From: Cyclonatronum proteinivorum
GTDB taxonomy: Bacteria > Bacteroidota > Rhodothermia > Balneolales > Cyclonatronaceae
Length of the DNA stretch: 64,000 nucleotides
NCBI RefSeq assembly: GCF_003353065.1
Contig: NZ_CP027806.1
Coordinates: forward strand, 2,686,501 to 2,750,500
Direction of reading: 5' to 3'
In this document: positions 37,521-60,300 of the stretch, one piece after another
Numbering within the stretch: the first letter of the stretch is position 1
Layout of the letters: each line of letters begins with the position of its first letter
Translations under genes and position numbers: made by a program
Notes under the pieces: model-generated
Database searches by the model: none
What the model was told of the DNA's origin: nothing
What the model saw: only the letters and a program-made list of their open reading frames with translations

Positions 37521-37787
37521 GGCTGATTTCTTTTGATGGGGTAAAAAATTAAATGGGCAGGTCTTACACTGATTTTGACAAAGGATATAAGCGTTGAACC
37601 TTCAGGGGTTTGCTTTTCCGAAAAATAGCGTACTCAGGCGTTTTTTTGTTTTGCGTATGAATAGATTTTCTGAGCTTCAGCTGTTGACTACCTATTGTTT
37701 TTACTACGCATGGGTACTACAGCATTCGGTATTCAAAAACCAAAATGTTCGTTTTTTAGGCAGGCTTACAGATACCGGGCACATATT

Positions 37788-38016
37788 AACCCGCTTTATT
37801 CACGATTAAACAGAATTTATTTGCTAAACATAAGTTTAATCTTGGCTTAGCACAAAAAAACGGTAACTCAAAATTGGGTGTGGTGTAAAGACTGCGAAAT
37901 TTTCCCGCTGGCGGCGTTGACGTTGAAAACTCATGCTCAGGGTACTTAGGTACCCCTCCGCTGAGTTTTAAACTTCGCCTTGCCAGCATGAAAATTTCTT
38001 GGTGAATAATGCGGGT
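37788..38016 (+). mobile_element. MITE-like element, copy A
   Basis: The left end AACCCGCTTTATTCAC and right end GTGAATAATGCGGGT form terminal inverted repeats with one mismatch. The right half (37895-37998) is a long imperfect palindrome centred on GGTACTTAGGTACC. The reverse complement of 60039-60300 aligns along its whole length, apart from extra bases in the middle of copy B. It contains no open frame that could encode a transposase, so movement would need one in trans. TTAA is present at the left border only. Confidence 0.85.
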
Positions 38017-59625: not shown

Positions 59626-60042
59626 ATGCGAGATATGATTTATCCTTTTGAAATTGAGTTAGATGTGCGCGACTATGAACTCGACGCACAGGGGATTGTA
59701 AACAATGCTAATTATCAGCACTACTTTGAGCATGCACGTCATGAGCTGTTGCGGAAAATCAGCCTTAGCTTTGTTGGCCTGCATGAAGCCGGATTTGATT
59801 GGGTCGTTCACCGCGTTGAAATTGACTACAAAAAGCCGCTCCGGTCAGGCGAGCGTTTTCGGGTGAAGGTCGCAGCCGAGCAAAAAGGGGTGCGATTCAT
59901 TTTCCATCAGAAGATTGAACGGGTCAGTGACGGCGCCGTCACAACGACCGGGAAAATTTCATCCGTTTTCATGCAGAACGGGCGCCCGGTTCGTCCTCCG
60001 CAGCTTGTGATTGACGCCTACAAAACGCTTTATCCTGGTTAA
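59626..60042 (+). CDS. Hotdog-fold acyl-CoA thioesterase (YbgC/4HBT type)
   Basis: A 138-aa cytoplasmic enzyme that hydrolyses acyl-CoA thioesters. 'YELDAQGIVNNANYQHYFEHAR' carries the catalytic Asp, aligned with the D-x-x-G-x-V-x-N signature of the 4HBT family. 'FDWVVHRVEIDYKKPLRSGERF' follows. The length matches the family. The stop codon TAA at 60040-60042 coincides with the TTAA at the border of the MITE-like element that follows. Confidence 0.9.
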   Translation: MRDMIYPFEIELDVRDYELDAQGIVNNANYQHYFEHARHELLRKISLSFVGLHEAGFDWVVHRVEIDYKKPLRSGERFRVKVAAEQKGVRFIFHQKIERVSDGAVTTTGKISSVFMQNGRPVRPPQLVIDAYKTLYPG

Positions 60043-60300
60043 ACCGCATTATTCACCAAGAAATTTTCTTGCTGGCAAGGCGAAGCTGAAAACTCAGCGG
60101 AAGGGTACCTAAGTACCCTGAGCATGAGTTTTCAGCTTCAACGCCGCCAGCGGGGAAATTTCGCAGCGTGGGAATCACTACGCTCGGAGCACAGCGCTTC
60201 TATCGCACCCAAATTTGAGTAACCGCAGCTTTTCACTAAGCTAAATTTAAACTATCATTTAGGTAATAAAACCCTTTTCAATGTGAATAATGCGGGTTAA
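60039..60300 (-). mobile_element. MITE-like element, copy B
   Basis: Terminal repeats ACCGCATTATTCAC (left) and GTGAATAATGCGGGT (right), with TTAA at each outer edge (60039-60042 and 60297-60300). A long imperfect hairpin (60060-60162) is centred on GGGTACCTAAGTACCC. The whole element matches copy A in the opposite orientation; copy B has ~30 more bases in the unpaired half. It contains no transposase frame. The left TTAA overlaps the thioesterase stop codon and the right edge lies 7 bp from the stop of the next, converging gene. Confidence 0.88.

Follow-up and report, generated by a model that had tools for sequence, protein, structure and literature searches.

What are the two similar, oppositely oriented sequences that lie in a 64,000-nt stretch (the window) of the chromosome of Cyclonatronum proteinivorum Omega, and why does one half of each keep the shape of a long hairpin? 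The host is a soda-lake bacterium of the order Balneolales, and its chromosome is a single contig of 4,294,247 bp. The first-pass annotation described two inverted copies of one element aligning over nearly their full length, and this placement is right after small corrections of the boundaries (Table 1). It also reported terminal inverted repeats. The repeats stand, but the leading AA assigned to them does not, as it is part of the TTAA target-site duplication; the inverted repeat proper is CCCGCATTATTCAC, 14 bp in length. The duplication is perfect around copy B and has decayed on the right of copy A. An open reading frame at 59626-60042 uses as its stop codon the TAA within the TTAA duplicated by copy B. 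The long hairpin in one half of each copy is confirmed by folding (z of -4.5 for copy A and -7.3 for copy B, with none of 200 shuffled sequences equally stable). Copy B is indeed longer in its unpaired half, and its extra length is a 28-nt insertion common to other genera. As had been stated, no transposase frame lies inside; no open reading frame of at least 100 aa overlaps copy A.

Table 1. Coordinates, in window positions, of the two copies and their parts
Feature	Position	Strand	Remark
Copy A	37790-38015	+	226 bp
TTAA left target-site sequence, copy A	37786-37789	.	right side TCAC, so the duplication is imperfect
Left terminal inverted repeat, copy A, CCCGCTTTATTCAC	37790-37803	+	transposase-downstream-type end
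Variable half, copy A	37804-37894	+	holds a palindromic box of the CCCAAATTTGAG type that can be recognised across genera
Hairpin module, copy A	37895-38015	+	121 nt; covarying imperfect hairpin and right terminal repeat
Right terminal repeat, copy A, GTGAATAATGCGGG	38002-38015	+	within the 121-nt hairpin module
Copy B	60043-60296	-	254 bp
TTAA target-site duplication, copy B, one side	60039-60042	.	
Hairpin module and terminal repeat, copy B	60043-60163	-	ACCGCATTATTCAC on the + strand
Extra 28 nt of the 254-bp class	~60164-60197 (approximate)	-	CTGCGCACCGAGCGAAGCGATTCCCGCGCAG-type small hairpin
Variable half, copy B	60198-60282	-	
Non-hairpin-end terminal inverted repeat, copy B, CCCGCATTATTCAC	60283-60296	-	
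TTAA target-site duplication, copy B, other side	60297-60300	.	

This short parasitic element occupies more than 100 sites in the genome. With copy A as the query, 40 full-length matches were found at 81-100% identity, and copy B gave 18 matches of the 254-bp class; at least 58 full-length copies were retrieved, and the total copy number is a lower bound. The first-pass annotation proposed looking for further terminal repeats in the genome, and these are abundant: the terminal 15-mer, with up to two mismatches, has 258 matches as compared to 3 for a reversed control. The further copies sit at differing insertion sites. A perfect 4-bp direct repeat, mostly YTAR, flanks 66 of the 96 distinct elements having both ends (TTAA 33, TTAG 12, CTAA 12, GTAG 2, CTAG 2, and five others). 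The size of the element is nearly constant, with most copies at 225-228 bp and a class of 253-256 bp that has one added 28-nt segment. This segment, a GCACCGAGCGAAGCGATTCCCRCGCAG-type small hairpin, is common to the 254-bp elements of the C. proteinivorum genome and of three others (G006, G008, and G002), and it is tandemly doubled at one locus (L154). Its sharing between genera reflects either an old sub-lineage or horizontal transfer.

All 54 copies examined for genomic context are intergenic. The flanking genes are tandem at 29 of them, convergent at 15, and divergent at 10; these counts are approximate, because the open reading frames come from a mechanical procedure and a few elements with overlapping calls may have been counted twice. 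The excess of convergent pairs is marginal (15/54 vs 33/199, p = 0.08). Between tandem genes, the element has no preferred direction (16 same, 13 opposite). An orientation-dependent or terminator function read from gene context was rejected on these two counts. At 10 of the 54 copies the stop codon of a gene falls inside the duplicated site; YTAR targets contain TAA or TAG.

The element is also present in other members of the family and of the order, the genome collection yielding Balneolales metagenome-assembled genomes, Fodinibius roseus, and F. salsisoli. A search of relatives for the hairpin core had been suggested, and a covariance model of the hairpin finds matches in 37 of 126 Balneolales genomes (~30%) and in 13 of 38 genera, with 1 to at least 28 copies per genome. 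In a phylum sample of 394 genomes, every hairpin match lies inside Balneolales. The second terminal repeat is found at the expected spacing in nearly all of the relatives' loci inspected; at one (L308) the contig ends first. Two hairpin copies, at locus L043 of genome G018 and locus L171 of genome G008, are nearly identical and come from genomes of different families of Balneolales, which reflects either horizontal transfer or mis-binned contigs.

Conservation is concentrated in the hairpin half, as the first-pass annotation had noticed. When 29 equal-length copies of the C. proteinivorum genome are compared with their own consensus, the variable half diverges at 13.0% of sites and the hairpin half at 3.0%; within the hairpin, paired positions of these copies diverge no differently from unpaired ones. 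Private variants number 0.29 per site in the hairpin half and 0.74 in the other half. Across genera, 24 sequences have changes on both sides at 24 of 40 hairpin pairs. The cells with both sides changed number 109, against 37.2 +/- 4.5 in shuffled alignments (0/500) and 7-22 in slid controls. The structure for this test was written by hand from the same sequences, so that the percentage paired is biased upward and the both-sided changes are the informative measure. Covariation is also seen on 87 sequences, in an alignment that was fitted to the model and in which a few matches lie on the reverse strand. The internal loops hardly vary across genera; they read CTCA/TTCC near the tip and GCGTT/CGCCTT near the base. 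It is the shape of the hairpin, not its exact letters, that is kept across at least 13 genera, and the covariation supports the proposal that the fold is under selection. The hairpin matches none of the 4227 covariance models of Rfam. A search of open-access literature returned no paper linking Balneol- with miniature inverted elements, and the papers examined that pair IS1380 with MITEs describe other families. A fold of this kind, apparently selected across an order, is new to us.

The proposal that the fold is needed for movement is weakened by derivatives of the element. Several hairpin-less or hairpin-damaged derivatives in the C. proteinivorum genome keep perfect duplications; they could have arisen by deletion after insertion. 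At three unrelated sites (loci with MES10-type sequence) there is a form of 83-84 bp that lacks the hairpin, shares its breakpoints between sites, and is flanked by TTAA in each case; this form has therefore probably transposed as such. It is unlikely that the hairpin is strictly required for movement. It may make movement more frequent or help copies to survive.

The element has the hallmarks of a MITE, i.e., 14-bp terminal inverted repeats, 4-bp duplications, many dispersed copies, and a size of 226 or 254 bp, which is under ~600 bp, with no transposase gene. The first-pass annotation called it non-autonomous, and that classification is supported. The MITE end CCCGNATTATTCAC is of the IS1380 type, as seen by comparison with CCCGGATTATTCAT, CCTGCATTTCTCAC, and CCCGCATTTCTCAC on elements matching NF033539/PF13701. 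Of the IS1380 loci in Balneolales, L264 and L265 have the ends CCCGGATTATTCAT, matching the MITE end at 13/14 positions, L271 has the end CCTGAATAATTCAT with TTAG on both sides, and L263 (1702 bp) has the end CCTGCATTTCTCAC with CTAG on both sides. An IS1380 element (PF13701/NF033539) of Rhodopirellula sallentina (L192) starts with CCCGCATTATTCACCAAGAA, and the 20-nt pattern CCCGNATTATTCACCAAGAA equals the MITE hairpin end at 20/20 positions; the other end of this element was not found. Annotated plasmid IS1380 elements of Rhizobium, Stutzerimonas, Pseudomonas putida, and Bradyrhizobium have CCCG(A/C)AT(C/T)T(C/T)TCA-type ends and CTAG or TTAG duplications. YTAR duplications flank the insertion sequences at L263, L324, L325, and L327; for the type element IS1380A of Acetobacter (L323), the best alignment gives a TCGA duplication, not YTAR. 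Since IS1380 elements elsewhere carry near-identical ends and YTAR duplications, the element is best read as an IS1380-type MITE, an assignment we hold with high confidence. Without an IS1380 transposase, it is a derivative and not an autonomous member of the family.

The first-pass annotation had suggested a search for an autonomous insertion sequence with the same ends; none with exactly the ends of the MITE was found in the C. proteinivorum genome. Six IS1380 copies of this genome (L031-L036) have open 477-aa frames and the ends CCTCAATCCGTGA...TCACGGATT(C/T)AGG. They were rejected as the helper on account of these ends, their apparent 5-6-bp duplications, and the lack of a leader hairpin, seen in the three copies folded; they represent another subgroup of IS1380. 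In the genome paper (PMC6243061), 52 transposase-containing elements are listed and the IS1380 transposases are described as partial; the word "repeat" is absent from it. Unpaired or widely spaced terminal repeats in this genome and in genome G003 yielded no autonomous copy either; the large pairs examined closely span host genes or neighbouring elements. In R. sallentina, CCCGCATTATTCACCAAGAACTTGTTGAATAATGCGGG (L189) is an element of 38 bp in which two terminal repeats nearly abut, with TGAA before and TTCA after it.

Most members of the IS1380 subgroup with CCCGCATT(A/T)(T/C)TCAC-type ends, which resemble those of the MITE and in most cases go with YTAR, form a strong hairpin at one end only, immediately inside the repeat that precedes the transposase gene. 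Its z scores are -5.5, -5.2, -4.7, -3.0, -4.8, and -3.4, as compared to -0.2, 0.8, -1.1, 1.2, -0.8, and -0.6 at the other end of the same elements. The R. sallentina element gives -5.0 at its single known end, and two Balneolales leaders (L262 and L271) fold weakly (-0.9 and -2.0). The MITE has the same asymmetry, with z of -10.9 at the hairpin end and -0.9 at the other, and its hairpin end is equivalent to the transposase-upstream end of the insertion sequences. In the sequence, the IS1380 hairpin can be seen to reach the annotated transposase start codon with its 3' arm, which adjoins a GGAG-like motif, a putative ribosome site.

How else could these observations be explained? Vertical descent of two ordinary intergenic stretches would account for their similarity, and nothing more speaks for it. 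Four-bp duplications are the mark of transposition; therefore simple vertical descent is excluded, and with dispersed copies bearing such duplications at unrelated sites, the probability of this explanation is practically nil. A helper of the IS701 or IS5 type would fit the YTAR duplications, as YTAR-like 4-bp targets are known for these families too, and the genome has IS701-type (DDE_5) transposase genes. However, the two groups of DDE_5 (IS701/IS4-type) elements in the genome have unrelated ends (CTGGAGTTTGGC... and CTCAACTTTCGC...) and were rejected as the helper, and no more than 4 of 41 genomes have DDE_5 matches; such a helper is very improbable. One of these groups (L077-L082) is a ~1.78-kb insertion sequence with the ends CTGGAGTTTGGC...GCCAAACTCCAG, near positions 326305, 3695961, 384250, 487341, 1603727, and 2896881 of G000:C1, whose best NCBIfam match is IS701_3, below the cut-off on the fragment tested. 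Short palindromes adjoin it at one end or at both (GTGCCCCTACAGGGCAC, CGACCCTTTCAGGGTCG, and, in two cases, the MITE hairpin tip GGGTACTTAGGTACCC), as if hairpin tips were its target.

Two further explanations concern the fold itself. The hairpin could be a functional structured RNA, cis-regulatory or small, that acts where it has landed, the repeats merely spreading it. The covariation, the nearly invariant loops, the scarcity of private variants in the hairpin half, and the intergenic location, with 10 stop codons in duplicated sites, agree with such a role. However, the copies show no orientation preference relative to tandem genes, their enrichment between convergent genes is marginal, Rfam has no match, and nearly all of the relatives' loci inspected have the second repeat where its spacing predicts. 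In addition, G-U cells are not above A-C cells on the hairpin strand (52 vs 118), in a comparison of cells that are related by descent and come largely from a few columns; they are about equal in a second analysis that leaves out one ambiguous pair. On balance, we consider a structured RNA unlikely. The paired changes could instead stem from template-switch (quasi-palindrome) mutation, in which one arm is copied onto the other and the fold is not selected. Direct switches such as GC to AT do dominate over the few wobble intermediates, but palindrome correction should perfect the internal loops, and these remain unpaired and nearly invariant across genera, so that this mutational origin is less plausible still.

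We return to an IS1380-type MITE with an IS-derived, propagated hairpin, which as a whole is likely to be the best explanation. The MITE would be an insertion sequence of the IS1380 family reduced to its two ends, hairpin included, with the transposase gene missing. An IS1380 transposase acting in trans would cut at the repeats and insert the MITE at YTAR sites. The hairpin would descend from the leader hairpin of the insertion sequence; this homology is somewhat favoured, the likeness being one of position and architecture and not of sequence alignment. In the insertion sequence, the leader hairpin would block translation of the transposase from read-through transcripts, because its 3' arm runs to the start codon with the GGAG-like motif. 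The weakest step is the last, in which the fold of the MITE is kept since hairpin-bearing copies propagate better. A subterminal DNA or RNA structure may be used by the transposition complex or may shield it, without being strictly essential. We put this propagation role forward tentatively.

With the IS1380 insertion sequences of the CCCGCATTTCTCAC-type subgroup (NF033539, PF13701), the MITE shares the terminal repeats, the 4-bp YTAR duplications of most members examined, and the hairpin just inside one terminal repeat only. In contrast to their ~1650-1700 bp with a transposase gene, it has ~226 bp without a gene, and its hairpin is longer with conserved loops of its own. Known bacterial MITEs, such as MITEPye1 of Paracoccus yeei, attributed to IS1182 (PMC11578231), and the Tn3-derived TIMEs (PMC4133298), are likewise short, gene-less, and intergenic, with inverted repeats, target duplications, and high folding energy. 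They differ in two respects: here conservation across an order, with covariation, extends to the architecture and to the fold of one end, and the presumed helper is IS1380. The transposase genes of IS10 and IS50 have translation-blocking leader hairpins. The IS1380 leader hairpin resembles them, as its 3' arm appears to cover the transposase start, whereas the MITE has no gene left to control.

Bacterial MITEs are usually regarded as remnants of a local insertion sequence that decay fast. The present family is ordinary in kind; what is unusual is its order-wide architecture and a covarying hairpin apparently inherited from the leader of an insertion sequence. That one architecture of ~226-228 bp with one folded end is found across the order with compensatory changes seems to imply selection beyond the terminal repeats. 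The hairpin over the transposase start is a possible control mechanism in an IS1380 subgroup, and the family includes relatives linked to the mobilisation of antibiotic resistance (ISEcp1). More speculatively, the upstream hairpin may be a conserved part of the subgroup, and in Balneolales compensatory changes in different genera may have preserved the fold of its gene-less derivative, for a role beyond hiding the transposase start. If true, the fold would serve, for example, in the recognition of one end as folded DNA or RNA, or in protecting the inserted copy and its neighbours.
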